Assembly: GCA_003116975.1 (NCBI GenBank)
Contig: BGKB01000046.1
Location: 363,315 to 427,314, forward strand
Direction: 5' to 3'
Source: Aurantiochytrium sp. KH105
Lineage: Eukaryota; Sar; Bigyra; Thraustochytrida; Thraustochytriidae
DNA: 64,000 nt
In this document: piece after piece, positions 2,916 through 54,330 of the stretch
Numbering within the stretch: the stretch's first letter is position 1
How the letters are laid out: the number at the start of each line of letters is the position of its first letter
The notes under the pieces: model-generated
The model's input: the letters and a program-made list of their open reading frames with translations, nothing else
What the model was told of the DNA's origin: nothing
Database searches by the model: none
Position numbers and translations under genes: made by a program

Positions 2916-4268
2916 CTAATTTGTCGAGAATCTGCTGACGTAGCTGGCGCTCTGCGAGACATAGCGCACCCATCGATGGGGGTTGTACGTCCGGTGCTGC
3001 TCAACAATCCGAAGATACTTGACCTGGAGCTGAGATGCGTTAAACATGGGGATCTCGAAAGAAAGCGAAATGGGTCCAATTTCGCGCCGGATCGCTGGCG
3101 ACATTGGCTCCTTGAGGTCGACCTTTGCGCGCAGCGTGTGCTCAGCGCCACCTTGAAACTTTTTAATCGTCCAAACCACCTTGTGGTCCTTGGCGCGATA
3201 CTCGGCCGTCTGCCCTGCTGCAGCTGCGCCCGAGTCGAGACGGCTGCTAACGCCATTAGAACGCGCAGGGACCGGCATCGTGGCCTGCACATTAACGCCA
3301 AAATTGTTCTGCGGAAGATCTGCTCGGATCTTGACGACAATTTCGATTTGTGTCGGCGAGTTCTCCTCGACGTGAGGGTATATCCGAAATGGCGCTACAA
3401 AGTCGCTGGTGATGCGGTAGTTCATGAGCACGAACTCGCCATCTGGCGGCACGAAGTTGAGCAGCCGCATGGACTCAAAGTCGTCCAGGCGCACGCACTC
3501 GTGAAAGTTACAATCGTCAAGAACAACCGAGCCGCCATAGTTGGCCGCCTCGCTTCCTTTTCCGACAACGAGATCCTCATTGAGCGCAAGGCGGAGCGGA
3601 GGATTTCCTGAAAGGTAGCTCTTCATGACGATGCTGCCATCAATATGCGAGCTCAGCGTGTACCCGTTGCCGTTGAAGAGCATGGTGAGACGTTCGAGTA
3701 TGTCGACAAAGATTTCGTTGCGCTGCTGACCAGACTTGGCGGCCAGAGTGACGGGCTTGTACACTGAAGAGGACGGCGTGGTTTTCTGGTTCATTGTGGG
3801 CATCTTGAAGGAATTCGCCTGCTTGATCATGTCGACCATGACCGGCTCGTTATGGACGTGCACCTTGAGCTGCTCCGTGGATGAGACCATGGGGTAGCCA
3901 TAGTCGAGAACTTCGTCGAGGAGCTCGTAAATGAGGACAAAATTCTTGCGGATGGCCTCCTCCGACAGCACGCCGCAGTAGTCCTTGAAAAGCTTGGCCA
4001 GACGGGCGAGGAGCTCGAGGGCAAAATTTGGCGAGACATTGTATTTGGTCGTGCACACAAAGTAGAGCCCGCTTTGCTTGATGAAGATGTAGTTCACGCC
4101 GTCAATGTTGAAGCACGGCGGGGCCTCGCTGCCGCCGTCACCCTTCCAGAACTTGACGCTGTGAAAGAAGACCTCCGCGGTGCCCTTGTCCACGTCGCTC
4201 CTAAAGTTTCGACTAATGATCGTGTCGCCGCGTGGCGACAAAATGTAGAACTGGCTCACGGAGAACAT
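2916..4268 (-). CDS. AP4M1: AP-4 adaptor complex subunit mu
   Basis: 450 residues starting at the ATG at 4268 (MFSVSQFYILSPRGD). A longer frame reaches 4316 but adds only a basic, non-conserved extension. The N-terminal ~145 residues are a longin-like adaptin domain: SQFYILSPRGD, EVFFHSVKFW, APPCFNIDGVNY and NFVLIYELLDEVLDYGYP all follow the AP mu pattern, and the FFxxVKFW/APPxFNxDGVNY wording is that of AP-4 rather than AP-1 or AP-2. Residues ~180-450 are the mu-homology domain that binds cargo tyrosine motifs, closing with the typical WVRYVSQSxSYVSR end. AP-4 sorts cargo at the trans-Golgi network without clathrin. Its presence implies the other AP-4 subunits elsewhere. Complete and intronless. 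Confidence 0.93.
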   Translation of the reverse strand: MFSVSQFYILSPRGDTIISRNFRSDVDKGTAEVFFHSVKFWKGDGGSEAPPCFNIDGVNYIFIKQSGLYFVCTTKYNVSPNFALELLARLAKLFKDYCGVLSEEAIRKNFVLIYELLDEVLDYGYPMVSSTEQLKVHVHNEPVMVDMIKQANSFKMPTMNQKTTPSSSVYKPVTLAAKSGQQRNEIFVDILERLTMLFNGNGYTLSSHIDGSIVMKSYLSGNPPLRLALNEDLVVGKGSEAANYGGSVVLDDCNFHECVRLDDFESMRLLNFVPPDGEFVLMNYRITSDFVAPFRIYPHVEENSPTQIEIVVKIRADLPQNNFGVNVQATMPVPARSNGVSSRLDSGAAAAGQTAEYRAKDHKVVWTIKKFQGGAEHTLRAKVDLKEPMSPAIRREIGPISLSFEIPMFNASQLQVKYLRIVEQHRTYNPHRWVRYVSQSASYVSRFSTN

Positions 4269-5220
4269 TTCTCTGGCCGTGTGTCGGCGCCCCCGCCGCC
4301 CCACCGCTCGTGCCACGCCGCGAGGCCCCGCTCGCTCGCGCGCGCGCCCGCTCCCGACCTTCGTAGGCTGCGCCTCTCTGCCCGGCCGTGTATCTTCTCC
4401 GTTGCTCGCCTTCCCCGCGTTCCCCGCGCTCCGAGTCCTCCAAGGTTGACTCTCGCGATGATGGAAACGATGCTGGCAAGGATGCCGATCGATGCTGGAA
4501 AGGATGCCAACGTTGGGAAGGATAGGATAAAGCTATGGAAAAAGGATACATCGATGCTAGAAAGCATGTCTTGCGACGCCCACATCGACCTCGCGTCAAG
4601 GGAAAATCGTTTGCTCCGCTCCGGGTGAGATTACGAGGGAAGGGCGCCAGAGGAAGTCCTTTAAAATCGTACGTGACGCATTTATGTCTGTCTCTCGGGG
4701 CGCATTTCAAGCTACAACGCCCTTTTGGAGTCGTGCATAGAATACTGACGAGTCTCGGTGTCAACCAGCCAGACCTTTCCTTCTCCATGCTTACCTTTGC
4801 AACTAGATGCCAAGTTGAAAATTCTCCGCAACGCTCGTGGACCGCGAGGCGAGAACACATCTTCTTCTTTAAAGTAGTAATGCAAACATGGTTCGGCTGT
4901 CAAGATGTCCTTACTTAGCAAGAAGTTCAACGCGCATCATCATATTAGATACCTCATGGCCACGAGAGCACATACTTTTGCGCCACTCGTGCATCTTCGG
5001 TTCTTGCCTTCTGCCTACTACGACTGCTTGTTCATGCAAGGCATGAACCATCGTCATCCTCTCCGAAGCGCAATTTTTAATTTATGGCTACAGCTCAAGG
5101 CCAGGGTTTCGGTGGATGTGTGCAATTTGAGCACAATGAACTGAGAATTAAAAGACTTTGCATGTTTTCGTGAAGGAAGCCAGGTTGGTAGGTCCTGTAA
5201 GCCTGTCACTGCGCAAGTAA

Positions 5221-5298
5221 TGCAATGCAATGCAATGCAATGCAATGCAATGCAATGCAATGCAATGCAATGCAATGCAATGCAATGCAATGCAATGC
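5221..5298. repeat. (TGCAA)15 microsatellite
   Basis: Fifteen perfect TGCAA units from 5221 to 5295, followed by a partial TGC. The pentamer creates open frames on both strands (repeating Cys-Asn-Ala-Met-Gln or Cys-Ile-Ala-Leu-His), which are artefacts. It is intergenic. Confidence 0.97.
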
Positions 5299-6128
5299 TT
5301 CCGAAGAAGTTTCGCGACAACGTCACTCAAACATTGAGCTTGCTTGATCCATGCAAGTTCGCAAATGCCGTTCCAGAAAGTCCTTGTCAAATTTTGCTAG
5401 CGCTCTCGATCACTATATATTTCTTCTAGATCCTAGGTCCTAGGGCTCATGCGACCAAAAACTGTAGAAAATTGGTCCCAAGGAGAACGGTGCGCCTTTG
5501 TTCAGAAAAATAACCTTCAACTCGCCGGTGACATGTTCTTGACCCCCTCCTCCCAAGTGCTCAGACTCTCTGCGTCAGCGCGCACATTCCATTAGAAAAG
5601 AAAAACTTTCCGATTGATTCCTTGCGTGCGGCGCAAGTCTTACAACGTAACCGCTACCGGCAGCGATGAACAACATCTCGGTCGTCACCACTCGCTATCG
5701 ACGCGGCACTAACCCAGCAAGCAAGCCAAAGCAAGCATGTTAGGGACCTTCGGCGCCGATCGGACGGAGCTCTGTTCCCCGAGTTCCCGTCGTAGTTTTC
5801 TCCGCAGCCCTACTGGACTCCGTGTATCCCCCCCGCGAACTACGTCCCCTCTTCACACGCCTCATCCCGCGCGAAGCGCTTGGTAGTTTCGGGGGCCAGG
5901 AAGCGTGTCTCTGCACCTGCGCCGTCCACTGCAGTGCGTCCCTTCAGACGAGACAGAATGCCGGGGTCTTAGTGGGGAGAAAGAAAGAGCAGGCAGCGAA
6001 TTCGCAAGCTGAGCGAGACCTGGGTCTGGTGGCAACCGCACGACTACTGTCTCTGCTTTTGAAGACAGACACCAGGCCGGATACGCGCAAGAGACCCGGT
6101 CGGGACGGGGCCCGCGCATGGCGGGGTG

Positions 6129-6332
6129 CGCATAGGCGACTTGCGGCGGCGGAAAGTGCAGTGTGCGCGCGACCGGTTTCCACTTGCGCGCGCGCGCTGC
6201 AAGTGCGGAATGGCGGCGCTGCGCAGACGCAGGCGGCTGCAGAGGGCGGACGCAAGTGCGGGCGCGGGCGGCTGCAAGTGGGTTATGCGGCGCGCGCAAG
6301 TGCCGCGGGCGGCGCCGCAAGTGCGCTATCGC
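6129..6332. promoter_or_regulatory. Phased ACTTGCG-motif array upstream of SDHA
   Basis: Contains three strong copies of a 17-bp composite motif (CGCATAGGCGACTTGCG at 6129-6145 on +, and reverse-strand copies at 6273-6289 and 6316-6332), plus a weaker copy at 6198-6214. CAAGT cores start at 6253, 6275, 6297 and 6318, i.e. every 21-22 bp; forward ACTTG cores sit at 6139 and 6182, 43 bp apart. The array ends about 210 bp before the SDHA ATG, consistent with an upstream activating region. That it binds a factor is inference. Confidence 0.65.
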
Positions 6333-6543
6333 GCCGCGACCGGAGCGCCGAGCTGCGCAGCGCCGCGCGGCCCTTTCGACTTTCAAAACAGATCCTTGCG
6401 CGACGGCGAGCACGCGGACAGCGCGAGCGCGAGCGGAGAGGCGGCGGCGGAGTTGCCGGCGCAGGCAGAGAGGCAGGCACGCAGACGCGCAGCGAGCGCG
6501 AAGGGACGAGGTCCGGCGCGGAGAGTAGAGCGAGAAGCACGGG

Positions 6544-8424
6544 ATGATGATGCGGCAGGCAGGCCTCCGCGCGTCGCGGCCGAGCGCCGCGGCGCGCCGC
6601 GTCGCCGCGCGTGGCTTGAGCAGCAAGACCACGGGCGAGTACACGGTGGTGGACCACGAGTTCGACGTGGTGGTGGTCGGCGCCGGTGGTGCCGGTCTCC
6701 GCGCCGCCATGGGCGCTGCCGAGCAAGGCTTCAAGACGGCTTGCGTCACCAAGCTCTTCCCCACGCGTAGCCACACTGTCGCCGCCCAGGGTGGCATTAA
6801 CGCCGCCCTCGGCAACATCACCGAGGACGACTGGCGCTGGCACGCGTACGATACCGTCAAGGGTGCTGACTGGCTCGGTGACCAGGATGCCATCGCCTAC
6901 ATGGCGCGCGAGGCCCCCAAGGCCGTCCTCGAGCTCGAGGCCTTTGGTCTCCCCTTTTCCCGTACCGAGGAGGGCAAGATCTACCAGCGCGCCTTTGGCG
7001 GCCAGTCCCTTGAGTTTGGCAAGGGCGGCCAGGCCTACCGCTGCGCCTGCGCTGCTGACCGCACCGGTCACTCGCTGCTCCATACTCTTTACGGTCGCTC
7101 GCTCGCCTTCGACACCTCGTTCTTTGTCGAGTACTTTGCCCTCGATCTCATCATGGACTCCCAGGGCGAGTGCAAGGGTATCATCGCCATGAACATGGAG
7201 GACGGCACACTTCACCGCTTTGCTGCCCAGGCCACTGTCCTTGCTACCGGCGGCTACGGTCGTGCCTACTTCTCGGCCACCTCGGCCCACACCTGCACTG
7301 GTGATGGTGGCGCCATGGCGCTCCGTGCCGGTCTCCCTATTGAGGACCCCGAGTTCGTCCAGTTCCACCCCACCGGTATCTACGGTGCGGGCTGCCTCAT
7401 CACTGAGGGCTGCCGTGGCGAGGGCGGTATCCTCCGCAACAGCGAGGGTGAGCGCTTCATGGAGCGCTACGCCCCGAGCGCCAAGGATCTTGCGTCTCGC
7501 GATGTCGTGAGCCGCTCCATGACCATGGAGATCCGTGAGGGCCGCGGTGTTGGCCCGGAGAAGGACCACGTCTACCTTCACCTCGACCACCTTCCCGCCG
7601 ACCTCCTTGCCGAGCGTCTCCCGGGTATCTCGGAGACGGCCAAGATTTTTGCCGGCGTCGACGTCACCAAGGAGCCCATCCCGGTCATTCCCACCGTGCA
7701 CTACAACATGGGTGGTATCCAGACCCTTCACACCGGCCAGGTCGTCAACCCGATCAAGGATGACCCGGACCGCGTTGTCCCCGGCCTCTACGCCGCTGGC
7801 GAGGCTGCTTGCGCCTCCGTCCACGGTGCCAACCGCCTCGGTGCCAACAGTCTTCTTGATATTGTCGTCTTTGGCCGCGCCTGCGCCAACCACATTGGCG
7901 AGACCCTCAAGCCCTCCAAGAAGGTCGAGCTCCCGGCTGGCGCTGGCGAGGACTCGATCGCCAACCTCGACAAGATCCGCAACGCCAACGGCTCCACGCC
8001 CACCGCCGACCTCCGTCTCCGTCTCCAGAAGACCATGCAGAACCACGCCGCTGTCTTCCGCACCAACGAGGTTCTCGCCGAGGGTGTCGTCAAGGTCGAC
8101 GAGGTTGTCCAGGAGTTCTCCGACATCAAGGTCACCGACCGCTCTCTCATCTGGAACTCGGATGTCATCGAAACCCTCGAGCTCCAGAACCTTTTGGGCA
8201 ACGCCGCCTGCACGATGCACGCTGCCGAGGCCCGCAAGGAGAGCCGTGGTGCCCATGCCCACGAGGACTACCCGGACCGCAACGACAAGGAATGGATGAA
8301 GCACACCATCACCCACTTCGACACCGAGACCGGCAAGGTCAAGGTCTCGTACCGTCCCACCCATCAGCACATGCTCCCTGGCGAGGACCTCGAGCCCTTC
8401 CCACCCCAGAAGCGCGTGTACTAA
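6544..8424 (+). CDS. SDHA: Succinate dehydrogenase flavoprotein subunit, mitochondrial
   Basis: 626 residues; ATG at 6544 (three consecutive ATG codons), TAA at 8422. The first ~35 residues are Arg/Ala/Ser-rich without acidic residues, a mitochondrial presequence. [15 protein letters not shown] (about 41-55) is the FAD-binding dinucleotide fold. SHTVAAQGG carries the His (residue 77) that bears covalent 8-alpha-histidyl [24 protein letters not shown] and [12 protein letters not shown] contain the dicarboxylate-binding and catalytic Arg region, and [21 protein letters not shown] the second FAD contact. The end, PFPPQKRVY, matches the eukaryotic family. It oxidises succinate to fumarate in complex II and the TCA cycle at the inner membrane. 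Length is normal. Third codon positions are overwhelmingly G or C, indicating high expression. The antisense strand is therefore open for hundreds of codons, but only as a shadow. Confidence 0.98.
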
Positions 8425-8613
8425 ATTTAGTAAGATTTTTACCGTCCCGTTCCTCCAATTCCTTGCTTCCGTCTTGTCGTGTTTTGTAGGCCTTCACCTA
8501 TTCGTGCGTTTTGCACAATCGCGGTTGCGGCCCGTGTGAGCGCGTGCCGCACATGCCACCCTCCCCTCCCGCGCCGCTTGTGTTTGCCTGGCCCCGTGTC
8601 GCGTTGTGGGCTG

Positions 8614-8728
8614 GTGACATGTTTTCAAGCGTGACACGTTTGCGGAGTGTTGACGCCGGCGCACAATCAGGTCACCGCAACAATCGTGTCACGCTCGAAA
8701 ACATGTGACACGCTCGAAAACATGTCAC
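8614..8728. repeat. Inverted and direct 25-bp repeats upstream of helicase gene
   Basis: One arm at 8614-8638 (GTGACATGTTTTCAAGCGTG and five more bases) recurs as its reverse complement at 8685-8709 (two mismatches) and again at 8704-8728 (three mismatches). The two rightward copies overlap with a 19-bp period sharing CACGCTCGAAAACATGT. The structure could be an operator-like binding site or the remnant of a terminal inverted repeat; no matching repeat is seen downstream of the gene. Confidence 0.9.
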
Positions 8729-8740
8729 GGTCAGCAAGGC

Positions 8741-8785
8741 AGGCGAGCGCCGCGCAGCACGAGAAGGCGAGCGGCGCGCAGCACG
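8741..8785. repeat. Tandem 21-bp GC-rich repeat, period 24
   Basis: AGGCGAGCGCCGCGCAGCAC at 8741 recurs at 8765 with one change. It lies between the inverted repeats and the TATA box of the helicase-like gene. Confidence 0.8.
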
Positions 8786-8930
8786 GGCATGCGAGTTGGT
8801 CAGACGCACCTGCCTAGCCCGTCCGGACCATGCGCAGCCGTCCGGCGTCCACCTACTTTTCCTCTTTTCACTTGAGCGCTCTCGCCAGCTCCTACTCCTT
8901 TCGCTCGCGCTCTCAGACCGCTCTAAAACC

Positions 8931-8937
8931 TATATAA
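8931..8937 (+). promoter_or_regulatory. TATA box of the helicase-like gene
   Basis: TATATAA, about 205 bp before the ATG at 9142. Few genes in this window have so clear a TATA element. A start site near 8960-8970 is inferred from usual TATA spacing. Confidence 0.55.
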
Positions 8938-9141
8938 TCGCTAGGAGGTCCTACCACACCTTAGTGAAGGCAAAGAAGAGGAGGGCCGCGCGACGGGCCC
9001 GGGGATCAGCAAATCCGCAACTCCAAGCAAAACCCAAACGTAGAAAGCAAGCACCACCTGTCTTCTCAAGCATCCGCAAGCAACACCGCAAGCAATACCG
9101 CGAGTAATACCGCAAGCGCAAGCAACACCCAAGGGAGCAAG

Positions 9142-12078
9142 ATGGACGCCATTGTAGACTCCTTCAAGTTTCTTGCGAAAGACTACCTCGAAAAGAATGA
9201 GGACGGTCTTAACATGCTTCGCGCCATTTGGAACGCTGTACGGAGCGATCCCGGCAAGGTCGAATTCTTCAAGACTGCAGGAGGGCCCTTGGCTGCTCTC
9301 TCTTCTTTTCTCGTTGGACTTCACGAGATGAACAAGCATCACGAGGTCGACAAGATGCTCGACGAGTTCGAAGGCGCCATGTACACCCGCGGCTCAAAGC
9401 GTCCTCGCATGCTCGATTCGGTATCTGCGGCCTCGTCTCCGGACCACCACGACTCGAAGCGTCTTCGCACGCTCGAACCGGGGTCTGCGGCCTCGTCTTC
9501 GAACCAAGCCGAGAGCAGCGGCGCCTCGGCCGAGCCCTCTCACGCGGACATCCCTATGGCGGAGTCGAACAGCGCGCCAGAGCCTGTTCCAGAGGAGCAA
9601 GAGCCCTCTATCGTGGCCGAGTCCCCACGCTCTGCAAGCGACTTTGACGATGCTTCCACTGTCGCGAGCGATTCCGACGAAGACGACGAGCTTCTGGCTA
9701 GCGAGAGCGATGACGAGGATATCGACCCAGAGCTCGGCAGCGTCAGCGAGGCCTTCGAAGGCACTTACTTTGGGCAGCTGCCGTGGACCAATGCTGCGCA
9801 AGCCGCAATCACGCTAGGCGAGCCCGAATGGATCGAGTGGGTCCAGACCATCAGCCGGATGGGCGAGCTTCTCGAGGCGCCGAAGACGGTCGAGGCCGCC
9901 ATCAATCTTCGTCTCGCCTGCAAGCTCATGCAGGACGACTTTGAGGCCCAGGAGCTCGTCGACATGAATCAGCCGGTCTTTGAGGAATTCTGGAAACGCG
10001 GCCGCGCGGTGTGCTCGTGCATCATGCAAGGCGGGAAGACTCGACGAGCGATTTTCTATCGTGGTCTCGTACATGCGGGGGTGCACAACAAGCACGCGGT
10101 CGTCCTCGCGAACGGAATGGGCGTTGCCTATAACGACCTGCTTTCCTCCATGAAAGATCTCAATGAAGACTACGTCAAAAAGGTCCCCAAGAAGCTTCGC
10201 GAGAACAATAGATACCTCCCGACCGAGGAACTTTTCCTCGGCACGAGGCTCAACCAAAAAGACCACTTCAGAAGATTTGAAGAACGCCAAAGAGGACAAG
10301 TGCACTTCAACATTCGTCTTTCCAGTGTGGCAAATCTCAGAACGCTCTCGGCAGCATTTAGAGGCCAGCTCGAATTCAACTCTGAAAACACGCATCTTCT
10401 TCTCGATGAGTCGCACGAGGCGATGGGAAGGCGTCGGTTTTCTACGCACGTACGCAGCGAGTTGGCCGAATGGAAAGACGTCACGCTTGTGACGGCCACC
10501 CCGCAAGCGCAGTTCATTGCGGAGGACCTGCTCGGAGGCAAGTTTCGCTTGGTGAACATCGTCCCTCGACCCGGATACTACTTGTACGGGCCGAAGGAGG
10601 AAAACCCCAGTCAAGACAGCGAGGACGGCAAGGTCCTGGTCGTCAAGTATGAGCCGACGGACGGAATGCAAAATTCTGATGCGGGCTCGAGTGCGAGTCA
10701 AACACTTGTCCCTTTTCCACGTGAATTCTTTCCACGCAGCGTGCCAGACGAGGAGATCACAGCACTTGGCAAGATTTGCAGGCGGAAACACTCCTTCTTC
10801 TGCATCGTTCTGAACAATCATGATGGACAAAATCCCAACGAGGGGGGTAGGTCCGTCAATGTTGGCCATGGCGTTATCGCCAAATGGATTATGCAGCTGG
10901 CGGTGTCACAGAGAATGCAGTTCAAGGAACCGGAGGTTCGGCCCTCGGTCGTCACCTACACGGTGTTCCAGCATTCTCGGGTCTCGAGCGAGTTCAGTAG
11001 GCCGCGACTCTTCTTCAACAAAGAGTTTTTGAAAGCGCTCGCACGCATCAGATTACCAGGCGTCGACAACCTCGTCTCGAGCATCTTTACGGAGAAGCAT
11101 ACTCGCTCGAATGAACGTGTGCTTGTCACGAAAAAGGTGTATAAAGCCCTCACGGATTTCTTCAAGGACGTGGTGCCGCAAGCTGTCGAGGTCTACAACG
11201 AGAAACCTCTCAACGATGAAAGTGTCTTCTCTCGCTATAGGACGACCTTGAACAGCGGTAAGGTGCTCACAACGTACTCACTTCAGCTCCCGCGGCTAGA
11301 AATCAAAGCAGTGCTTAGCATCATTCGATTTGTGCACGAGACTAGGTTTTCCAAGAGCAAATACAAGTCCTACGAGTCGGCTCCGTTGCAGCTTGCTGTC
11401 GTCGGCGGTACGCTTCTCAAACAGAGTGTCAACGTCGAGTCCAAGTGTCGCGAACTTCAGTCAACGCACCTCATGTACATGCGCAAACCTGGTGAGCGTT
11501 TTGATCTTACACGTCTTCTGCAAAAGCTTGGTCGCGTCGATCATGGTCACACCCAAAGCTCCTTTTTCAGGAGCGCCTTTCCAGGCAAAACGAAGGTGGA
11601 CGAACGTCGCCCGACTGTCGTGATGAACAGAAGGTACATCGATCTTGTACTTAACTCGCCGCGTATGCTGCGGGAAGCAGCGGAGAGGGGTTCTGACGCG
11701 CTCATCACATTCTTTCGCAACGTTTGGATGCTGTCCCTGGAGCAGGCGAAAAAGCGAGCAACAATTATGAGCTGTGCATGCAGAGAGCTCGAGGAAACTG
11801 AGGCGGAATACTATGAAAGGGTGAGGGACATGAACGAGCTCAGTGCCTGGATTCTGAACGAGTCCAATGTTCCCAACGTGACTCATCAGGACGCTACAGA
11901 CATCGCCCAAGCGATCAAGGAACAATTTGCTGTTGTGGGCCTGAATCCCGACATGAGTCGTGAAGGCCTTATCGACGTTTTCGACTACGGGATTGATGCC
12001 TCTCCTCTTCAGCGAAAGGTGCACAGCTTTTTGGGAAGGGCTCCGGCAATTCCGGCTCGTTTTCTGACATTCCCTTAG
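9142..12078 (+). CDS. SF2 helicase-like ATPase with Z1-type motifs
   Basis: 978 residues in one exon; ATG at 9142, TAG at 12076. Residues 1-75 are a helical leader; about 80-205 are acidic, Ser-rich and contain a repeated KRxRxLxxxSAASS unit. The ATPase core starts near 280: MQGGKT with Lys299 (Walker A of the xQ[SG]GKT kind), VVLANGMGVAY, LLLDESHEA with Asp422 (Walker B), and LVTATPQAQF at ~449 (motif III). The second lobe has LAVVGGTLLKQSVNVES (~750) and a LLQKLGRVDHG box (~792), in the same order as the VGGxxLxRGxTxE and D-LLQ-x-RWFGYR signatures of Z1-domain proteins. Nucleic-acid-dependent ATPase activity is inferred; the substrate is unknown. Base composition is less GC-biased than SDHA. 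Candidate origins include a mobile element or large DNA virus, but no neighbour supports either. Confidence 0.85.
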   Translation: MDAIVDSFKFLAKDYLEKNEDGLNMLRAIWNAVRSDPGKVEFFKTAGGPLAALSSFLVGLHEMNKHHEVDKMLDEFEGAMYTRGSKRPRMLDSVSAASSPDHHDSKRLRTLEPGSAASSSNQAESSGASAEPSHADIPMAESNSAPEPVPEEQEPSIVAESPRSASDFDDASTVASDSDEDDELLASESDDEDIDPELGSVSEAFEGTYFGQLPWTNAAQAAITLGEPEWIEWVQTISRMGELLEAPKTVEAAINLRLACKLMQDDFEAQELVDMNQPVFEEFWKRGRAVCSCIMQGGKTRRAIFYRGLVHAGVHNKHAVVLANGMGVAYNDLLSSMKDLNEDYVKKVPKKLRENNRYLPTEELFLGTRLNQKDHFRRFEERQRGQVHFNIRLSSVANLRTLSAAFRGQLEFNSENTHLLLDESHEAMGRRRFSTHVRSELAEWKDVTLVTATPQAQFIAEDLLGGKFRLVNIVPRPGYYLYGPKEENPSQDSEDGKVLVVKYEPTDGMQNSDAGSSASQTLVPFPREFFPRSVPDEEITALGKICRRKHSFFCIVLNNHDGQNPNEGGRSVNVGHGVIAKWIMQLAVSQRMQFKEPEVRPSVVTYTVFQHSRVSSEFSRPRLFFNKEFLKALARIRLPGVDNLVSSIFTEKHTRSNERVLVTKKVYKALTDFFKDVVPQAVEVYNEKPLNDESVFSRYRTTLNSGKVLTTYSLQLPRLEIKAVLSIIRFVHETRFSKSKYKSYESAPLQLAVVGGTLLKQSVNVESKCRELQSTHLMYMRKPGERFDLTRLLQKLGRVDHGHTQSSFFRSAFPGKTKVDERRPTVVMNRRYIDLVLNSPRMLREAAERGSDALITFFRNVWMLSLEQAKKRATIMSCACRELEETEAEYYERVRDMNELSAWILNESNVPNVTHQDATDIAQAIKEQFAVVGLNPDMSREGLIDVFDYGIDASPLQRKVHSFLGRAPAIPARFLTFP

Positions 12079-12636
12079 GCTCTCATCCTTTCAAGTAAAA
12101 AATAAAAGAGGAAGAGCTCAGCTTTCGCGTTCATGCCTTGTTCAACCTGTTATATTCAACCTGTCAAATACCTCTCATCAGAACACGACGAAGCGATCAA
12201 GGACTAGATGAAATAATGACAGTCAATCGCTGGCCAGGGCCTCTGCACGTGTGATCCATCTTGCACCTGCAGCTGACGTTTTACTTTAATTAACTCTTTG
12301 TCTTTTCTTTTCTTTTTTTCGACGTACTACCACCTTTTCGGGTGCAGCGTTATCGAGGAGGAAGCAAATTTGCTTCCAGGACTCGTCTGGGAAGAGTGCC
12401 TTAGGTAGATAAGTAGTGAAGAAGTTTGTTATGTATAAGATCGAGCAAGGCAAACAAAAACTGCACAAGGCAGGTCCGCAAAAGGTGTCTGGCTGCTTCA
12501 GAACAGGTCTCTCTCTCTTGGCGCAAGAACCAGCGATAGAGAATCGGCCGCTCGGCGCGCCCGAGTCGAAAAGGAATCGACAATGGGGCCCTGGACCCTG
12601 GGTTGGGTTTGCAAGGGGGCCCGGGGGATGGGGTAT
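12079..12636. other. Convergent spacer
   Basis: 3' regions of the helicase-like gene and the convergent hypothetical gene. An AATAAA-type poly(A) signal lies at about 12100-12107. I see no gene; the short frames here lack coding character. Confidence 0.5.
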
Positions 12637-13410
12637 TTACAAAAAGACGGGGTCCTCAAACAGAACGGTTGTCTTGGGCGCGGCGCCAGTCGCTGAGCGG
12701 GACTTGGAGAGCCCTGAAGCAGATGCGCCGACGCGCGGGCCTTCGCCAATCATCTCGGCGTCGTTGTGCGCTTGGAGCGCAAGCATGTGCGAGCGCGTCC
12801 GCTCAAGGTCCTCAGCTGCGCGCTCATCCTCTTCATCATAGCCGGTGCGGGCGTCGCCAAAGATGAGCTGATTGATGAGGCCGTGTTGGGCGTGCGCCGT
12901 ACGCTCCTCGTGACTGCCCTTGCTTGGCACGGAGAGACACTGGATAAGAGTCTCGAGACGCTTGTCAAACATGCGGCATTGCGCCTTGAGGAGCTCGAGA
13001 TCGTCGACGACATCAAGCTTGCGCCATGCGTTGAACCACATTTTGGCATGTGCGTCCATGCTATTCTGAATGCGCGTCAGTGTGATGGTAATCGTCTCCA
13101 TCACATCGCGCACGTTGCTCACGCAGACATGAATAAAGTCCTCGCTCGTGCTGCCGGCGAGCTCGACCTCGTCACTTTCGACGGCCTCGAGTAGAGACCG
13201 CACCGTCTTGAATTTGGCCTCCACATCGAGCTCCATCAAAATGAATTGCACGCGTCCGACAGACTCGTGGTTCTTGGCGAGAAGCGCGATTGCTGTATTG
13301 GCCGCAGCTTCGACGGCTTTGTACAGCATCACTCGCGTGAGCTGGTACGCGAGCGACACGCTCACGGCGCTCACCGAGGCCACCGTCACGATCGCTGTCG
13401 CGGCGGCCAT
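12637..13410 (-). CDS. Hypothetical protein with hydrophobic N-terminus
   Basis: 257 residues from the ATG at 13410 (MAAATAIVTVASVSAVSVSL); an open extension to 13491 is a Ser/Lys/Arg run encoded by a leader repeat and probably not translated. Residues 3 to ~35 form a hydrophobic Ala/Val/Ser-rich segment, a likely membrane anchor or signal. The rest is mainly helical, with charged segments (about 45-200) and an Asp/Glu-rich patch (DEEDERAAEDLERTR) before a Ser/Gly-rich tail ending FEDPVFL. I do not recognise the family. The coding sense is supported by an unbroken frame, normal amino-acid composition and a clear stop. Three weak-to-moderate ACTTGCG-type motifs lie about 0.95 kb upstream. Confidence 0.7.
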   Translation of the reverse strand: MAAATAIVTVASVSAVSVSLAYQLTRVMLYKAVEAAANTAIALLAKNHESVGRVQFILMELDVEAKFKTVRSLLEAVESDEVELAGSTSEDFIHVCVSNVRDVMETITITLTRIQNSMDAHAKMWFNAWRKLDVVDDLELLKAQCRMFDKRLETLIQCLSVPSKGSHEERTAHAQHGLINQLIFGDARTGYDEEDERAAEDLERTRSHMLALQAHNDAEMIGEGPRVGASASGLSKSRSATGAAPKTTVLFEDPVFL

Positions 13411-13820
13411 TTCGCTTGTTCTCTTTATTTTTCGTCTACTCTTGCTCTTGCTCTTGCTCTCGCTTTGGCTTTTGCAACGAGACGGAGACAAGCTCGTTCA
13501 CGACGCGGTGCGAGCAGGTGCTTGGGGCGTTCCACGACCGGAGGCGCTACGGCCACCTCGTCGCGAGCGCGGCGCTGATCTTCAAGTCTCTTCCCGGGCG
13601 ACAAGATGCGCGTGGAACAGCGGGCCCCTTCGCTACCCCCGCCGAGCGTACGTACAAGCGCACTCACCCGCGTGTGTGCGCACGTGCGTGCAGGCGTGCG
13701 TCGAGAGCAAGAGCAGCCGCGCGACGACGCCGAGACCGACGCTCGGCGGTCAGTCGGTCTTCCCTAGATTGACTTGACGCAAAGTCTGACGAACGAACGA
13801 CGAGCGAACGACGACCAGGC

Positions 13821-13862
13821 GGGCGGGCGGGCGGGCGGGAGGGAGGGAGGGCGGGCGGGCGG
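13821..13862. repeat. GGGC/GGGA tetranucleotide tract
   Basis: Repeated GGGC units interrupted by GGGA units. Intergenic, G-rich on the + strand and potentially able to form G-quadruplexes. Confidence 0.85.
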
Positions 13863-13956
13863 ATACCCTGCGGCGCCACGCGGCGCGTCTGTCTGTGCTC
13901 GCGAGCTCGTTGCCGCCGCGCGTGTGTTTCCCTTTCCCGTTTCGCCTTTGCTTGAA

Positions 13957-13979
13957 TCGATCGATCGATCGATCGATCG
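13957..13979. repeat. (ATCG)n microsatellite
   Basis: About five and a half perfect ATCG units, self-complementary (GATCGATC), in non-coding DNA. Confidence 0.9.
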
Positions 13980-14345
13980 GTGAGTTTGAACAATCCAACA
14001 AACGCAGCTAACAACAGCACCAAATTGAACTCGTTGTGTATTAAAGGGGTTTATCTGAGTTCGACGCTTTTGAAAAAGTGCTCGAGCCTCCTCCTGCCTC
14101 TCACCCGCCACTGTTCCTTTGCCGCGCAGAGAGCCAGGCTCCGCGGAGCAGCGCGGCGCCGCGCAGGCCGCTACCGCTCGCGCCGCTCGCGCCGCGGCGG
14201 GCCGCGCCGGCGTGTTTCGCGCTCCTCGCGCGGCGGGCGAGAGCGCGGCGAGTGCGCGCGTCCTGGCTTTTCTTTCCTTCCTCTCTCCTTTTTTTTTTTT
14301 CTTTCTTTCTTTCTTTCACGGTGCCCAAACGACTCCGGCGAGCAC

Positions 14346-14402
14346 GGCAAGTGGGCAAACGGACGTCGTGCAAGTGAATTATCGGGGTGAAAGCGACTTG
14401 CG
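14346..14402. promoter_or_regulatory. ACTTGCG-type motif cluster
   Basis: Reverse-strand copies at 14346-14362 (GGCAAGTGGGCAAACGG, weak) and 14369-14385 (TGCAAGTGAATTATCGG, moderate) are followed by a forward copy at 14386-14402 (GGTGAAAGCGACTTGCG, moderate). Cores are 23 and 25 bp apart. The cluster lies between two minus-strand genes, about 0.95 kb upstream of the hypothetical gene starting at 13410 and just past the 3' end of the methyltransferase gene. Confidence 0.5.
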
Positions 14403-14720
14403 CGACCGAGGAACCACAGAGGAAATTTCCTCCCCTCTCCTGGACATCAAGTATACACAGCGCCGACCAAGTCGGAAACGAAGCCTGCAAATGAAGAATA
14501 GCCAACCAGTGCAAATAGAGACAATATCATTTCAAATTAAAGGTCAAATCAAACAAGTCGAGGAAAAAGCCCCATCTTTGAGGCTGGCCGAGAGCGGCAC
14601 GCCATTTTCGCAGCCGTCGGTACAGACGCGCAAGCACTCACGTTGCGAAACAAAGGCACTCACTCTTCATCTCCCTACGCGAAAAATTGAAAACCAAACA
14701 AGCGTCTCGGACAGGGCGCA

Positions 14721-16379
14721 TCATGAAGCCGCTGCTTCTGCTGCCGACGGCGACCGCGTGTAGCGGAAAAGCAAACAGCGCTGCTGCTGTAAATGGTCCG
14801 GCTTGCCGACGCGCCAATAGGAAAGGTGACCCGACGCCTGCAGCAAATTTTTGACCTGCTCGTGGCGCTTGGAAAAGTTTCCGGACACTTCGACCGCAAG
14901 AATCGCACCTTCTTGGACAGAATTTGTCTGCGCGAAAAAGGACGCCACAGCGCGATAGCCGTCGAGACCATCTTCGCCCCCAGAATAGCCGGCGCGAGGC
15001 ACATTGCGAAGAACAGCCATCGTGTCCGAAACTCGATCAGGAAGGTACGGAGGATTGCAGACTACCGCTGAGAAGAGGACGCCAGAGGTTTGCACTTCTG
15101 GGAACGGGTCCGGAAACTGAGCGTAGTCGCACTGCTTGAGAACGCAGCGGTCCGCAAGTCCAAGCGAACTCGCATTTGCACGAGTAGCCTCAACGGCATC
15201 CGAGGAAATGTCGACGCCAAAACCCTTCCAGTCTGAATCGAGATGCTGACGGAGTAAAGTGAGCAACAAACAACCTGATCCAACGCCGAGATCGATGATC
15301 GCCTTCTCTCGTGCACCGGCAGCGGCGGCGGGTGGAGCTTCCACAAGTGCCTCGGCAAGAGATTCTACGATGGATTGTGATCCCTGGAAGGGCGCAAACA
15401 CTCGCTGCGAAACTGAAAACGTCAGGCCCGCAAAGCTTTGCTTGCCTGTCACATACGATATAGGGTCTCGCTCTTCGGCCAGGAGGCGCGCGCGCTTGGG
15501 ATCGATGCCCTGCTGGATGAAGTCCTGTTCTCGTTTGCACGTCTTTGTTTCCCAAGCCGCTTCCTCGCGCATGCCGAGCAGAGCGTAGCGCTCCAAGACC
15601 TCGTCGACCCTTGAAAAGTCGATGCAAGTGCCGTCTGCGAGAGTAAACTTGAGACTGCACGTCGCAAGCTTGTTCCCTCTGAAACCTCGTGCGCGCAGTC
15701 GAGCTGTGGAGCTTCCGTGACCCACGACAGGGTGACCAATCTTTTGCAGGCTTGCCTTGATGGCGGCCTGATGAAAGGCGGTCCATTGCGCCTCCAAGAT
15801 GCTGAGCCAGCCACCTTGAGCGGAATGGCTATGGAACTGGCGAACTACGCGAACTTCATGGATTGTGTCGGTGCTATTCTTATGCGTGCGTCGCAGCGCC
15901 TCTAGCGCAGCGTCGTCGACCTTGCCATGGACCATCCAGACCGATCTCTTGATGATACCGCCGGCGCGCGCCACTGCGTGCACGGCATCGAGTTTCTCGG
16001 GTCCTTGGGCCGCAATAAAAACGTCTTGTGTACCCTTTGTCAGAGCTCGACTATAGACCACGTTCCACTCGGATCCACGCGCCGATTTGATGAGGGCGTC
16101 TAGTTGCACGCCCGACACATTGGGCGACTTGATCCCGGCAATGAGTCCCTCTTGCTCCTGCATGATCTCGTAATGAACGAATGGCAGTCGCACACCCTCT
16201 TTCTCCTCCTTGACGACTGTCTCTCCGGCGCTTAGCTTCGTGCTGGTCTCCTTGACGGGGTCCAGGTCGTCCGCGTCCCTGTCGCTCCCGCCACGACGAC
16301 GACGACGTTGCTCAATACGTCCATCCATCACGCCGTGCTCTTCGACCGCCGCAGCGGACGCATCGTCGTCGTCGTCCAT
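14721..16379 (-). CDS. HemK-type N5-glutamine methyltransferase with degenerate RluA-like N-terminal half
   Basis: 552 residues; ATG at 16379 followed by an Asp/Ala-rich lead. The C-terminal half is HemK/PrmC-like: DPISYVTGKQSFAGLTFSVS (linker preceding the fold), IIDLGVGSGCLLLTLL (SAM-binding motif I), GVDISSDAVEATRANA (motif II) and CNPPYLPD (NPPY, which holds the substrate glutamine). HemK enzymes methylate the GGQ glutamine of release factors; this bacterial-type arrangement suggests a mitochondrial role, though no clear presequence is visible. The N-terminal half (about 60-260) has the order of an RluA pseudouridine synthase, especially FHQAAIKASLQKIGHPVVG resembling the HQIRvHla-GhPivGD block, but lacks the RLD catalytic Asp. 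The usual IPRPETE segment reads APFQGSQ. The fusion reading is inference. Confidence 0.85.
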   Translation of the reverse strand: MDDDDDASAAAVEEHGVMDGRIEQRRRRRGGSDRDADDLDPVKETSTKLSAGETVVKEEKEGVRLPFVHYEIMQEQEGLIAGIKSPNVSGVQLDALIKSARGSEWNVVYSRALTKGTQDVFIAAQGPEKLDAVHAVARAGGIIKRSVWMVHGKVDDAALEALRRTHKNSTDTIHEVRVVRQFHSHSAQGGWLSILEAQWTAFHQAAIKASLQKIGHPVVGHGSSTARLRARGFRGNKLATCSLKFTLADGTCIDFSRVDEVLERYALLGMREEAAWETKTCKREQDFIQQGIDPKRARLLAEERDPISYVTGKQSFAGLTFSVSQRVFAPFQGSQSIVESLAEALVEAPPAAAAGAREKAIIDLGVGSGCLLLTLLRQHLDSDWKGFGVDISSDAVEATRANASSLGLADRCVLKQCDYAQFPDPFPEVQTSGVLFSAVVCNPPYLPDRVSDTMAVLRNVPRAGYSGGEDGLDGYRAVASFFAQTNSVQEGAILAVEVSGNFSKRHEQVKNLLQASGHLSYWRVGKPDHLQQQRCLLFRYTRSPSAAEAAAS

Positions 16380-17022: not shown

Positions 17023-17093
17023 CGCATAGCCCACTTGCGCGGCGCTTTCCGCACTTGGCTCAAGTCGGGTATCGCGGCGATTCCCGACTTGCG
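17023..17093. promoter_or_regulatory. ACTTGCG-type motif cluster between divergent genes
   Basis: Strong forward copy at 17023-17039 (CGCATAGCCCACTTGCG), a weak forward copy near 17044-17058, a strong reverse copy at 17059-17075 (CTCAAGTCGGGTATCGC) and a forward copy at 17078-17093 (CGATTCCCGACTTGCG). It lies about 640 bp upstream of the methyltransferase ATG and 730 bp upstream of the channel ATG, so it could serve either gene. Confidence 0.6.
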
Positions 17094-17213
17094 CGCGCTG
17101 GCCGGAATCAGTAGCATCATACGTATACAGGCAGAGCCAGCAGAGCAGCAACAAACCAACCGCGGCAAGAAACGAAGGCCGCCCGCGCGACCGCGAGCGC
17201 AGCCGCCCCCGCG

Positions 17214-17821: not shown

Positions 17822-20800
17822 ATGCCCACCAGGGGCGCCAACGAGCCCACGGACGAGGAAGTGTTCGCGCCGCCCGCGCCCACGCCCTCGCCTGCGCTGC
17901 ATCGCCCGAACACAGTGAACGGCGGCGGCGGCGACGACGACGACGCCAAAGAACGCGAGCTGGACGAACTTGACTTGGCAGCCAACGAACACGGGCTTCG
18001 TAATATTGCCTCGGTCAACGACATGAAGGCGGATGACGGCCCCGACGGCCGCGTCGGGAGCACGAGCACCGGCAGCAGCACGAGCAACAGCGAAGACCTG
18101 GACAGGCTCTCCGAGTGTGCCTCGGGGCGGAACACGCCCTTTGGCAGCTCAGCTGCCGCGAGCGGTGTCTCAGACCGCCTCTTTGAGACAGAAAAGGCAA
18201 TGTACAAAACTCCACGCAACTCGTACATGACAGCAAATCATCAAGACTCGCTCTTAGGCGTTGGTTTGGGCAAAATTACCAACGCACCAGCGTTACCTCC
18301 GCGCAGAACTTTAGCACCTCGACCGGAATCTTCTGGACCAACAGATACGCTGCTCCCCTTTGGCACAACAAATGAGGCACCAGCTGGCGTCCAAGTTCTA
18401 CATCGTCCAAACGATGCGAATGGCGAAGGAGGCGACGGAGATAGCAATCCCGGCGACGGAGATAGCGTTCCGGGCTCCTTGGACGATAGCATCGAGGGAG
18501 AGCCTCTCGCCAGCGGAATTCCCCTCTTTGAGATCTACAAAGCCACGCGGCTCTTCAAGGTGCAAAGCCGGGCCTTGGAGGGTATTTTTTTCCTCGTGTT
18601 CATGCTCGCCTTTTGCTTTGTCTTCATTGATCTACGTGTCACCGTTCTTGCAGGAGAAACTACTGAGACACTACTGGACTTTTTCATAGAGGAGGAGTTC
18701 GTCGAGCTAGACGTTCCGGGTCTCGAGGGAGCGCCCTTTTTTCAAAAAACCTATCGCGACGTCAAAACCACCGAAGAGTGGTGGCGCTGGGCGCTTGGAC
18801 CGCTCAGCAATGGTCTCTGGGCCGACTTCTCCGATAATGGCACGTATCCCCGTGGCCTGCCGCAGCAGGACTCCCAGAATTATATTCTCGGAGGCGCAAA
18901 TGGGGGTATTCTCTTTCGCACCGCCCGCGTAACCTCTGACTCATGCACGCGCGCGTCCTTTGCGACCGAGCAAATGAGGGAGCTGGCAGGCAACGATGAC
19001 GCCGTCGAGTGTTTTGGTCGATGGCCCGACATCGACATTAATGACCCGGGTGCAAACCAGAATGTCGATACGACCACTTTCGGGCCACTCAGCGACGGCA
19101 ACATTTCTGCCAAAGCACAGAGTGCCTTTGTTTTTACCAAGGACATTGAGACGTCGCTCGAAGGCACCCTCTTGGGCCAAATGTACTTTCAGCGTAACAA
19201 CTACGGGATTGGCGCTTTCATGGTGGACTTGCCAGTCAACAACTTCGACTCCGCCTCCACGGACGTTCTCAAGGAACTCTTTAGCAACAACTGGATTGAC
19301 CTCGCCACGCGCGTCGTCTCGGTTGAGTTCAATGTCTACAATCCGAGTACCAACGTTGTCACAGCTGTCCGCTTCTTCACCGAGATTGCGCACACGGGTA
19401 TGATCCGCCCATCCTTTAGGTTCTATCACATCAACGCGCTCTTGTGGGAAAATATGCGAGGTGGCCAGATTGCTGCCACCGCCATTTTCTTGGTGCTCTT
19501 GCTTCGCCTTTCTGCTCGATGGTTCAACCGCATCTTTACCTGCAGCAGATGGGAAACGCTGCTTCGCTGGGAGGTTGTCTTTGACACGATCCTCGTTTTT
19601 CTCTTTTGGTCGTCAATCATCATGATCAGTATGGTGACACAGCACTCGCGGGTGGTCCGTTCCTCGCGCTTCTCCGAGACGGTCTCGAGCGACACATTTA
19701 CACCCGGCATTTTTGAGAATGCTGAATTGATGCACTCCGTCGACGCACTGTGCTCAATCAACCTCATGCTTGCCACAGTCAAGCTCATCAGCTACCTGCC
19801 CTTTAAGACGACGCGGACAATCTGGTCGACCCTCGGAGGAGCCGTCAAGGATGTGGTGGTGCTTGGCATCGTTGTGCTCGTTTTTTGGGCGGGCTTTTCG
19901 GTCGGCTCGCACCTCACCTTTGGTTCACTTGGGTTCTTTGACTTTAATCGGATCGATCGCACCTTTGGCACCCTCATGGTCCTCATGTTTTCTGGAAGTA
20001 TTGAGTTTAACGCCATGCGCGAGGTTTCTTTCACCGCCGCGCCCCTCTTCTACTCCATTTACATGATTTTCATGTGGGGTGTGATGCTCAATCTGTTTGT
20101 GGCCATCATCGTTCTTACCTATGAGCGTCACACCCAGTGGCAGGCAAACTTTGAGACGTGGTCTGATCTGCACCAGGGGACAAATAGCGGCTGCATCATC
20201 ATGAGCTTTTTGGATCGCCAGCTCCACCGTTGCCGCCAATACTGGTACATGCTGCGTTGTAGCATCCTCAAACAATTTTCTCCCAAGGCATCAACACTTC
20301 CAGGGGCAACTGCACGAGACAGTGATATCGAAAATGGCACCGCTGCTGCTTCTGTGGATGCAGAAGACGTGCGCGCCGACGATAATGAAGTCACCGATGA
20401 TATCAACCAAAATGGCGACATTGCCGCGACTGGCGCGACTGGTGCCCGCTTGCAAACGATTGAGTTGACCGAATCCGCTGAACGAGGTGGCGCGCGTCGC
20501 GGCTCGGAAATCCGGTCGACCCGAGGGTCCGGACGCAACACTTCTTTCTTTAGCCCGTTTCGCACCAGTCAACGTCGCACGCAGCGTAGCGATCCAGACG
20601 AGCTTCCGTGGGACGACCGTCGGAACCGTGGCGATATAGCGGCGGCCAGAGTGCTAGTTGCCGAAGTGAGACGGCTTCCGGAAGAACAACGCCTTGCGAA
20701 GCTACGGGAGCTTGACAATCCGCACAAGGTTCTCTTTCGCGAGGCTTTTCATCGGGAAAACTTTCGCAAAGCTGTCGCTGTCACCCGTGACACGCTCGAG

Positions 20801-21478
20801 AAATTCAGTCGTGCTGCCCAGGCGGAATCAGTGATCATCAAAAGATGGCGGTACGAATTCGACCAGCAGAATGGCCATTCTCATAATGGGTCCATGAGTC
20901 TGCTGGATTATATCAAATCGTGGATCAATGTCTGCAGAAGAGCGACCGAGTCCGATCGAGCCTCACAAGTTAGTCGGACTGGAAACAGGAGATCGGGTCT
21001 GGCCAAGTACGAGCGCTTCTCAACGCTTCTCAAGCAGGAGAAGGAGCTTGCAATGCACAAGCTCATCATTGAAAAGGCGCTGCGAGAGACGCAACATCTC
21101 TTCCAAAAACACCGACTGAGCTTTAATCGTCTCATGCGCTCTACCTGGGACCACGCTGCGGACAATGAACGCCTTATGGAGGTGAACTTTGCGGAGCTCA
21201 AGGAAATGTTCACGCCGGGATGCTCGCCGGGTAAGTGCTCATTTTGCGCTGAAGAGACAAAGGCCATCGAAGAACGTACAAAGGCTCTCTTGCGCTCGTA
21301 CCATTATTTGCAGAGACACAAGGCCTTTTTCAATGGCATTCGCCGTCGTGTAATTCGTGTGCGTCGCGTTAATGATCTTTCGATGAGGATGCCCCCACCT
21401 GTACAGCGCGCCATGAGCACCAACACCCATGGGTCTGCGTTCGACACCATGTCGAATTCGCGTCAGCCTTATCGGTAG
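17822..21478 (+). CDS. Polycystin-2-like (PKD2/TRPP) cation channel
   Basis: 1,218 residues from the ATG at 17822. The N-terminal ~235 residues are cytosolic and low-complexity. TM1 is near 253-275 (IFFLVFMLAFCFVFIDL), followed by a ~270-residue luminal loop typical of the polycystin TOP domain: TYRDVKTTEEWWRWALGPL near its start and an RFYHINALLW strand near its end. TM2 to TM6 lie near 545-570, 583-606, 638-660, 676-700 and 738-766, with a pore loop at ~714-726 (FGTLMVLMFSG). TM6 ends NLFVAIIVLTYERH, a polycystin signature. The ~450-residue C-terminal tail is charged, has a CSPGKCSFC cluster and coiled-coil character; I see no EF hand. The family forms tetrameric Ca2+-permeable channels in cilia or endomembranes; location here is unknown. 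The gene is convergent with the GAF protein at 185 bp. Confidence 0.93.
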   Translation: MPTRGANEPTDEEVFAPPAPTPSPALHRPNTVNGGGGDDDDAKERELDELDLAANEHGLRNIASVNDMKADDGPDGRVGSTSTGSSTSNSEDLDRLSECASGRNTPFGSSAAASGVSDRLFETEKAMYKTPRNSYMTANHQDSLLGVGLGKITNAPALPPRRTLAPRPESSGPTDTLLPFGTTNEAPAGVQVLHRPNDANGEGGDGDSNPGDGDSVPGSLDDSIEGEPLASGIPLFEIYKATRLFKVQSRALEGIFFLVFMLAFCFVFIDLRVTVLAGETTETLLDFFIEEEFVELDVPGLEGAPFFQKTYRDVKTTEEWWRWALGPLSNGLWADFSDNGTYPRGLPQQDSQNYILGGANGGILFRTARVTSDSCTRASFATEQMRELAGNDDAVECFGRWPDIDINDPGANQNVDTTTFGPLSDGNISAKAQSAFVFTKDIETSLEGTLLGQMYFQRNNYGIGAFMVDLPVNNFDSASTDVLKELFSNNWIDLATRVVSVEFNVYNPSTNVVTAVRFFTEIAHTGMIRPSFRFYHINALLWENMRGGQIAATAIFLVLLLRLSARWFNRIFTCSRWETLLRWEVVFDTILVFLFWSSIIMISMVTQHSRVVRSSRFSETVSSDTFTPGIFENAELMHSVDALCSINLMLATVKLISYLPFKTTRTIWSTLGGAVKDVVVLGIVVLVFWAGFSVGSHLTFGSLGFFDFNRIDRTFGTLMVLMFSGSIEFNAMREVSFTAAPLFYSIYMIFMWGVMLNLFVAIIVLTYERHTQWQANFETWSDLHQGTNSGCIIMSFLDRQLHRCRQYWYMLRCSILKQFSPKASTLPGATARDSDIENGTAAASVDAEDVRADDNEVTDDINQNGDIAATGATGARLQTIELTESAERGGARRGSEIRSTRGSGRNTSFFSPFRTSQRRTQRSDPDELPWDDRRNRGDIAAARVLVAEVRRLPEEQRLAKLRELDNPHKVLFREAFHRENFRKAVAVTRDTLEKFSRAAQAESVIIKRWRYEFDQQNGHSHNGSMSLLDYIKSWINVCRRATESDRASQVSRTGNRRSGLAKYERFSTLLKQEKELAMHKLIIEKALRETQHLFQKHRLSFNRLMRSTWDHAADNERLMEVNFAELKEMFTPGCSPGKCSFCAEETKAIEERTKALLRSYHYLQRHKAFFNGIRRRVIRVRRVNDLSMRMPPPVQRAMSTNTHGSAFDTMSNSRQPYR

Positions 21479-53272: not shown

Positions 53273-54258
53273 TTCGTCACGGGCGCTACTCTTCTTGTAT
53301 GCCCTCGTATCACATCCTTTCCCTCGTTCACGATTGAGTGCAAAAGGGGCGCGCTGCACGTCTCTGTGCAGCCGGTCTCATCTCCTCGCGCGCCGTCCGG
53401 CTTCGCGCAAGTGAACAATGGTGCTATTCTCCACTTACGCTGCGCCCTGGCCAGTCAACTCACCTCGCTAGCCAACCAACTAACTATGACAACTAACTTG
53501 CGGGCTGGCTGTCTGGCCGCCTTGCCACCCTATCTATCTCCAGCCTTTCACCTCGATCCCAACCTCCGCCAACCGCTCGTCCATTTCCGTCGCCCGCTCT
53601 ACAGTGCACGGCAGGCGGTCTTCGAGCGGTCTCCCTCGCCGGTATCCGGCCTAGCCTCGCCAACATGCAAGCAACCATCGCGTGCGCGGGTCGGTCGTAC
53701 GGGGCGCCATCACCCTCCACTTGATTACTGGTATACTAGTATAGATGAATGTCCGCAAAGCAAAGCTTCACATTCTGGTCAGTATCCGCTGCCACTCGTC
53801 GAGGACGGATACACCCACGAAAAATACACCCACGAAAAAATCCACGCTGCTCTCAACGCGCGTGGCCTGGCCTAGGCCTATGCCTAGTCAACGTGCCGCC
53901 CGGCATTCGCTTCATCGCTCCGGGCTAGTCGCGGTGGCGTCCATCTTGGATTCCCGCTTCGTTCTTCCGGGAAATCCACTACGGGACAGGCCGCGCCCGT
54001 CCCGCCGGCGCTTCTGCGAGTACTAGCAGGCATGGCGGTCCTCGCCTCCCGCCTCGGCCCGGCCCGCCCGCCCCGCCCCGGCTCGCGGCCGCACCGGAGG
54101 CTTCGCGCTGGCACGGGCCAAGAGCTGCGCGGGCGCGTGCGCAGAAGCGTGCGCGAGCGGCGGCGGCTGCGCGGGAGGGAGGCTGGGTCCGGGAGGGAGG
54201 AAGAGAGGGAGACGGAGGAGGCGCGCGTGCGCGGCGGGCCGGCTTCACGCGCGAACGC

Positions 54259-54330
54259 GCTATAGCCGACTTGCGTCGCGCGGAATCTGACTTGCTTGGG
54301 AGGGTTTGGCCGACTTGTGCACAGTCGGCC
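54259..54330. promoter_or_regulatory. ACTTGCG-type motif cluster with near-perfect palindrome
   Basis: Strong forward copy at 54259-54275 (GCTATAGCCGACTTGCG), a weaker copy at 54279-54295 and another at 54302-54318 (GGTTTGGCCGACTTGTG). Cores start at 54269, 54290 and 54313, spaced 21 and 23 bp. The last copy runs into GGCCGACTTGTGCACAGTCG (54308 onward), a near-palindrome centred on TGCA. The cluster is about 1.0 kb upstream of the type I membrane protein ATG at 55323. Confidence 0.6.

Follow-up and report, generated by a model that had tools for sequence, protein, structure and literature searches.

A 17-bp motif built around ACTTGCG recurs throughout this genome in short arrays, and its copies lie on an orientation-independent lattice with a pitch of ~21.5 bp, measured from the A of ACTTG. 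The motif is probably a genome-wide proximal promoter element, along which protein units would sit side by side on one face of the DNA and aid transcription. The initial annotation of the window (the whole stretch of 64,000 nucleotides analysed here) had described the motif in intergenic clusters; the observation is real and confirmed, and is larger in extent than that annotation had it.

The coordinates and strands of the seven 17-mer copies quoted there are all correct in the window sequence, as are the starts of the CAAGT cores in the array upstream of the SDHA gene (6253, 6275, 6297 and 6318) and the 43 bp between two of its forward cores (A of ACTTG at 6139 and 6182). Five arrays lie in the window. 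They were scored with a weight matrix trained on 69 clustered sites from 16 loci other than the window, the 5' half of which is biased to the consensus of the initial annotation, since each training locus had been picked for an exact copy. The arrays, with the positions of the A of ACTTG and the matrix scores, and the neighbouring genes, with their Pfam domains, are as follows:

2916..4268, minus strand: adaptor-complex medium subunit, divergent neighbour of SDHA (Adap_comp_sub)
6130..6331: SDHA upstream array, A at 6139(+), 6182(+), 6204(-), 6257(-), 6279(-), 6301(-) and 6322(-); scores 9.3-21.0
6544..8424, plus strand: SDHA gene, downstream of the first array (FAD_binding_2, Succ_DH_flav_C)
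14345..14403: array, A at 14352(-), 14375(-) and 14396(+); steps 23 and 21 bp; scores 16.2, 12.1 and 10.0
14721..16379, minus strand: methyltransferase-domain gene, divergent from the polycystin gene (Methyltransf_31)
17024..17094: array, A at 17033(+), 17053(+), 17065(-) and 17087(+); scores 24.5, 10.7, 12.3 and 17.8
17822..21478, plus strand: polycystin-type channel gene, downstream of the 17 kb array (Polycystin_dom, PKD_channel)
53405..53440: weaker pair, A at 53412(-) and 53433(+), 21 bp apart; scores 17.9 and 12.8
54260..54320, plus strand: array, A at 54269(+), 54290(+, weak) and 54313(+); steps 21 and 23 bp; scores 16.5 and 14.6 (54269 and 54313)

The pair at 53412 and 53433 had been missed by the initial annotation. 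Site 17033(+) is an exact match to the consensus, and its array lies between the starts of two divergent genes; the array at 14345..14403 lies ~0.9 kb upstream of a minus-strand ORF (12637-13410). The weak core at 54290 is visible in the sequence and scores above threshold in the other copy of the genome described below. The last two arrays (53405-53440 and 54260-54320) lie ~0.9 kb from each other, in the same long interval that separates divergent coding calls at 50.4 and 55.3 kb. Scans of the window for tRNAs and Rfam families returned nothing.

The recurrence of a 17-bp motif stood, while the consensus quoted for it proved slightly too narrow. Across 86 distinct tandem pairs genome-wide, among the matches listed, the broader consensus is approximately CATNSYSS-ACTTGCG, with ACTTGCG fixed and positions -4 to -1 variable (S, Y, S, C or G); among these listed pairs, position -1 is C in 83% and the AT at -7/-6 is found in 64% and 70%, respectively. 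G precedes ACTTG in 16-23% of sites, and the resulting GACTTG led us to reject an E-box (the bHLH site CANNTG), which needs CACTTG. Plant site II, TGGGCY, was also rejected: its conserved GCCCA block is absent, positions -4 to -1 vary and ACTTGCG is the fixed part.

Throughout the 76.03 Mb assembly (367 contigs), CGCATAGCCSACTTGCG was found with up to two mismatches in 573 places, 36 of them exact, versus 9 for the reversed pattern, and tandem ACTTGCG pairs 11-41 bp apart numbered 1,193 versus 11 for the control. Coding regions were defined by codon-usage calls trained on Pfam-supported ORFs, not by gene models, and with this definition ACTTGCG ranks 4th of 630 7-mers of the same composition in the non-coding DNA of the window plus 40 kb, and 233rd of 630 in the coding DNA. 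When compared to dinucleotide shuffles (five per region, with four score thresholds tried), the 33 kb of non-coding DNA in the window holds 18 sites with scores of at least 12, versus 2.2 in the shuffles, and the 30 kb of coding DNA holds 4 versus 1.4; for an unselected 40 kb from another contig, the same threshold gives 7 versus 1.2 in non-coding and 0 versus 0.8 in coding DNA. The excess is weaker at a score of 8. Enrichment is thus genome-wide and mainly non-coding, as expected of the non-chance pattern that the initial annotation had claimed.

It could be argued that such words simply arise by chance in GC-rich DNA, and the arrays do occupy the most GC-rich stretches, with local GC peaking at 0.69-0.72 compared to 0.55 at 2 kb. 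This is refuted both by the genome-wide counts and by the window itself, where [CG]ACTTG occurs 3-7 times in four of the five array regions versus a mean of 0.07-0.26 in shuffles (the region 53380-53460 carries 1 versus 0.08), and we give chance practically no weight. A search for partner motifs around the arrays returned GC-rich words as the most enriched 6-mers (top 40 6-mers). On viral contigs, the exact 17-mer produced eight single matches, which we judge to be due to chance, and the pair pattern produced at least 120 matches, as did its reversed control (at least 120).

The relative placement of the sites is tightly defined in every orientation. Besides the tandem pairs, the assembly contains 752 pairs in the four-turn range of 32-62 bp (control, 26), 333 convergent pairs (control, 10) and 237 divergent pairs (control, 11), counts which do not represent independent sites because the assembly carries many regions twice. 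Among the matches listed, which are the first in contig order and not a random sample, spacing is 19-24 bp in 88 of 100 tandem pairs and 41-44 bp in 67 of 100 four-turn-range pairs, while total length is 21-25 bp in 34 of 50 distinct convergent places, and 42 of 50 divergent pairs fall at 33-35 bp. For the peak pairs among these listed matches (88 tandem, 34 convergent and 45 divergent), the mean distance between ACTTG centres is 21.40, 17.91 and 25.09 bp, respectively. Since the convergent and divergent means average 21.50 bp, a single pitch fits all three orientations provided that the unit has its centre ~1.8 bp 5' to the middle T, a point that falls on the A of ACTTG.

The two-turn phasing put forward in the initial annotation is borne out by a genome-wide spacing peak at 21-22 bp (it had proposed to look for one at 21-23 bp), with exceptions in two clusters of the window: in the 17 kb cluster, 17065 breaks the two-turn rule, at distances of 12 bp to 17053 and 32 bp to 17033, and the SDHA array has a 53-bp step between 6204 and 6257. 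When distances are taken from the A, sites defined by the matrix in 18 sequences fall into the two-, three-, four-, five- and six-turn bins in 44, 3, 28, 2 and 14 pairs, and the near-empty three- and five-turn bins indicate a two-turn unit rather than helical phase alone. In addition, we examined 28 four-turn pairs, among the matches listed, whose own strand carries no exact core between the two sites; in 20 of them the middle slot was filled by a site with a score of at least 8, versus a mean of 0.14 and at most 2 in shuffles; these 20 sites comprise 6 exact cores on the opposite strand and 14 weaker copies. A periodogram of all distances between 12 and 140 bp did not single out 21.5 bp (0.51, versus 0.60 for 11 bp and 0.59 for 23 bp), a result that counts against the promoter-element reading without being decisive.

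These figures also bear on a chromatin signal, in which helix-phased, AT-containing patches would set nucleosome rotation or bend the DNA with no dedicated reader. The two-turn period holds in both orientations and the AT patches stand in GC-rich sequence, both of which are in keeping with it. Such a signal should nonetheless allow three and five turns, which are rare here (3 and 2 pairs, compared with 44, 28 and 14 in the two-, four- and six-turn bins), and it does not account for the preference for ACTTGCG over its own reversed order or for a core that is kept base by base. A purely rotational signal of the kind that the initial annotation had entertained is thus disfavoured by spacing and base-specific conservation, and we consider it improbable.

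The intergenic location described initially was also borne out. We read 20 of the 36 exact-site places with ~5 kb on each side, where some coding calls are weak: none of the 20 sites falls within a call, and 35 of their 40 nearest neighbours among the calls point their 5' end toward the site. The sites are non-coding and close to gene starts, as is usual for promoter arrays, at ~0.2 to 1.4 kb from the start codon; this variable distance counts against a promoter element. Stricter coding calls, which allowed 15 of 16 distinct loci to be typed, gave 10 divergent, 4 tandem and 1 convergent locus. We rejected a bidirectional-promoter signal on these grounds, since approximately 65% of unselected intergenic length already consists of divergent gaps and there is no clear divergent excess. 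The lack of such an excess also counts against the promoter-element reading.

Position likewise weighs on the possibility that the arrays are a replication, boundary or other chromosome element, intergenic by happenstance. Bacterial replication origins carry phased arrays, and the mixed orientation and two to seven sites per array would suit such a role. An element of this kind is difficult to reconcile with the 5' ends of 35 of 40 nearest coding calls pointing at the site, and with the scarcity of sites between two 3' ends (0 of 20, or 1 of 15 with stricter coding calls), and we regard it as decidedly improbable. The replication element that the initial annotation had offered as an alternative thereby gained no support.

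Beyond the genes listed above, Pfam-supported genes adjoining arrays encode Mo25, GAPDH, eIF3e, an ABC transporter, a TCP-1/cpn60 chaperonin, a kinesin, an RRM protein, HSP70, EF1-gamma, a PRP21-like splicing factor, a second GAPDH and ASF1, and the array-adjoining coding call at locus L016 is a proline dehydrogenase. Taken together, the neighbours of arrays range over glycolysis, respiration, translation, chaperones, splicing, signalling and channels, and a single regulon was rejected because they have no common pathway. A signal common to all housekeeping genes was not supported, in that only 1 of 12 proteasome upstream regions carries an array (800 bp upstream of each; 12 of ~15 distinct proteasome-family loci). 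Both results count against the promoter-element reading.

The assembly contains two diverged copies of each region compared, with 3.4-5.5% substitutions, as in a highly heterozygous diploid or a hybrid. Positions 3345-22066 and 52021-57113 of the window pair with contig C43 (L042, L023 and L043); L014 is the second copy of L012, L015 of L011, L019 of L018 and L023 of the window locus. Alignment of six regions showed 5 substitutions in 340 core positions of clustered sites versus 235 in 3,468 flanking positions, and a weaker contrast when the other copy served as reference (13 of 381 versus 285 of 4,122); the two directions are not independent, and bases were treated as independent. Indel events numbered 1 in 636 bp versus 50 in 3,680 bp of flank in the same six regions. 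Lattice steps were of unchanged length in 16 of 16 cases from one copy and 17 of 17 from the other, including the steps of 43, 22, 22 and 21 bp of the SDHA array, with no indels in 389 bp of lattice steps versus 59 in 3,894 bp of flank. The sites are thus under selective constraint, as are those of promoter arrays. Counted against the promoter-element reading are the weaker contrast from the other copy and the control word [CG]TCATG, one of five, which is about as conserved as [CG]ACTTG when all occurrences are taken, coding ones included (9 of 354, or 0.025, versus 12 of 534, or 0.022).

A further alternative is a dispersed repeat or satellite remnant copied through the genome. Many copies are similar, and a few arrays (L012 and L026) have very similar neighbouring units, as a repeat would. 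Nevertheless, Tandem Repeats Finder reported no array across the five window arrays, cores are kept while spacers are free, strands are mixed, and the near-identical loci are second genome copies; a conserved head-to-tail unit including its spacer, which would define a satellite or tandem repeat, was not found. We consider this origin very improbable.

Base specificity, occurrence on both strands, alignment on one face, a unit of constant size and conservation together fit a sequence-specific protein that binds next to its neighbours, and the promoter element remains the probable reading. Each site of ~17 bp (CATNSYSS-ACTTGCG) would be bound by one unit of a putative sequence-specific protein that, judging from site statistics, may read two patches approximately one helical turn apart, the AT at -7/-6 and ACTTGCG. 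Units aligned at the ~21.5-bp pitch, in either orientation, would share one face of the DNA, so that neighbours could touch and help one another onto weaker sites. The array would keep GC-rich DNA close to gene starts occupied, thereby helping to recruit transcription at a subset of genes, and its position suggests activation of the adjoining ones. Protein binding, contacts between units and activation are predictions from sequence. With regard to the cooperatively acting factor proposed in the initial annotation, motif, enrichment, spacing, position and two-copy conservation all fit a neighbour-binding factor, and we infer the cooperativity. In an unlikely variant that deserves some attention, a protein would tile promoter DNA in two-turn units regardless of site orientation, forming a short one-face filament that replaces or excludes nucleosomes; promoter architecture would then result from tiling and not from separate factor sites.

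The promoter element proposed here resembles the sites of housekeeping promoter factors (mammalian NRF1 and GABPA, M1BP and DREF of flies, Reb1 and Abf1 of yeast), which bind specific sequences where the promoters of general genes are GC-rich or poor in nucleosomes. We know of none among these factors that reads a 17-bp site in an orientation-independent lattice of 21.5 bp. The geometry recalls bacterial iterons and phased operators, where proteins are aligned on one face over sites of ~17-22 bp placed approximately every two turns. Those belong to bacterial replicons and operators, in contrast to the hundreds of mixed-orientation arrays seen here in a eukaryotic genome.

Among stramenopiles, the PhRiboBox of Phytophthora, an oomycete, is a promoter motif of ~12 nt in many constitutive genes (PMC4696810), and resembles the present motif in being common to many genes. 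It differs in being concentrated in ribosomal-protein and related genes, and its description there does not mention phased arrays (PMC4696810), features by which the two may be told apart. The oomycete core promoter elements INR, FPR and DPEP (YCAYTYY, MWTTTNC and SAASMMS; PMC3599244) were likewise found by over-representation, and are described as tied to the transcription start with a forward bias. The present motif is longer, occurs in both orientations and in arrays, and lies 0.2-1.4 kb from start codons; identity with these elements was rejected on the basis of the different consensus (PMC3599244) and the widely varying start-codon distances. As far as their motif descriptions go, the oomycete promoter papers concern other motifs (PMC3599244, PMC3520976 and PMC4696810, the PhRiboBox by description only), and an ATAC-seq study of Schizochytrium limacinum names BPC, MYB and other classes (PMC10840233). 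Among the papers listed (15 of 304 in the case of ACTTGCG promoter motifs), we found no description of the element in the literature on thraustochytrid promoter motifs or binding sites or on ACTTGCG promoters, with subscription papers, preprints and patents outside the scope of the search.

If the proposal is correct, it would define a widespread promoter element in a poorly studied eukaryotic lineage, with the sharp geometric prediction of a two-turn lattice that keeps to one face and has the A of ACTTG as its centre. Such an element would offer a direct route to factor isolation and promoter annotation, a way into promoter evolution outside animals, fungi and plants, and a tool for promoter design in oil-producing protists, provided that the organism is one. 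The assembly carries two copies of a PfaA-like polyunsaturated fatty acid synthase region, which scores 930 bits (family cut-off, 1,010); weaker PfaA-like matches, all below the cut-off, occur in 11 of 14 control genomes. This region makes a thraustochytrid source plausible, as support short of proof.

Three further features of the window were recorded. The gene at 36241-38304 encodes a protein with three Myb repeats, for which no link to the motif was seen. ORF 9142-12078, which has no Pfam match, contains a 60-bp tandem duplication at 9393-9506 (1.9 copies, 83% matches). Finally, 16 perfect tandem copies of the pentamer AATGC lie at 5219-5298, upstream of the SDHA promoter.
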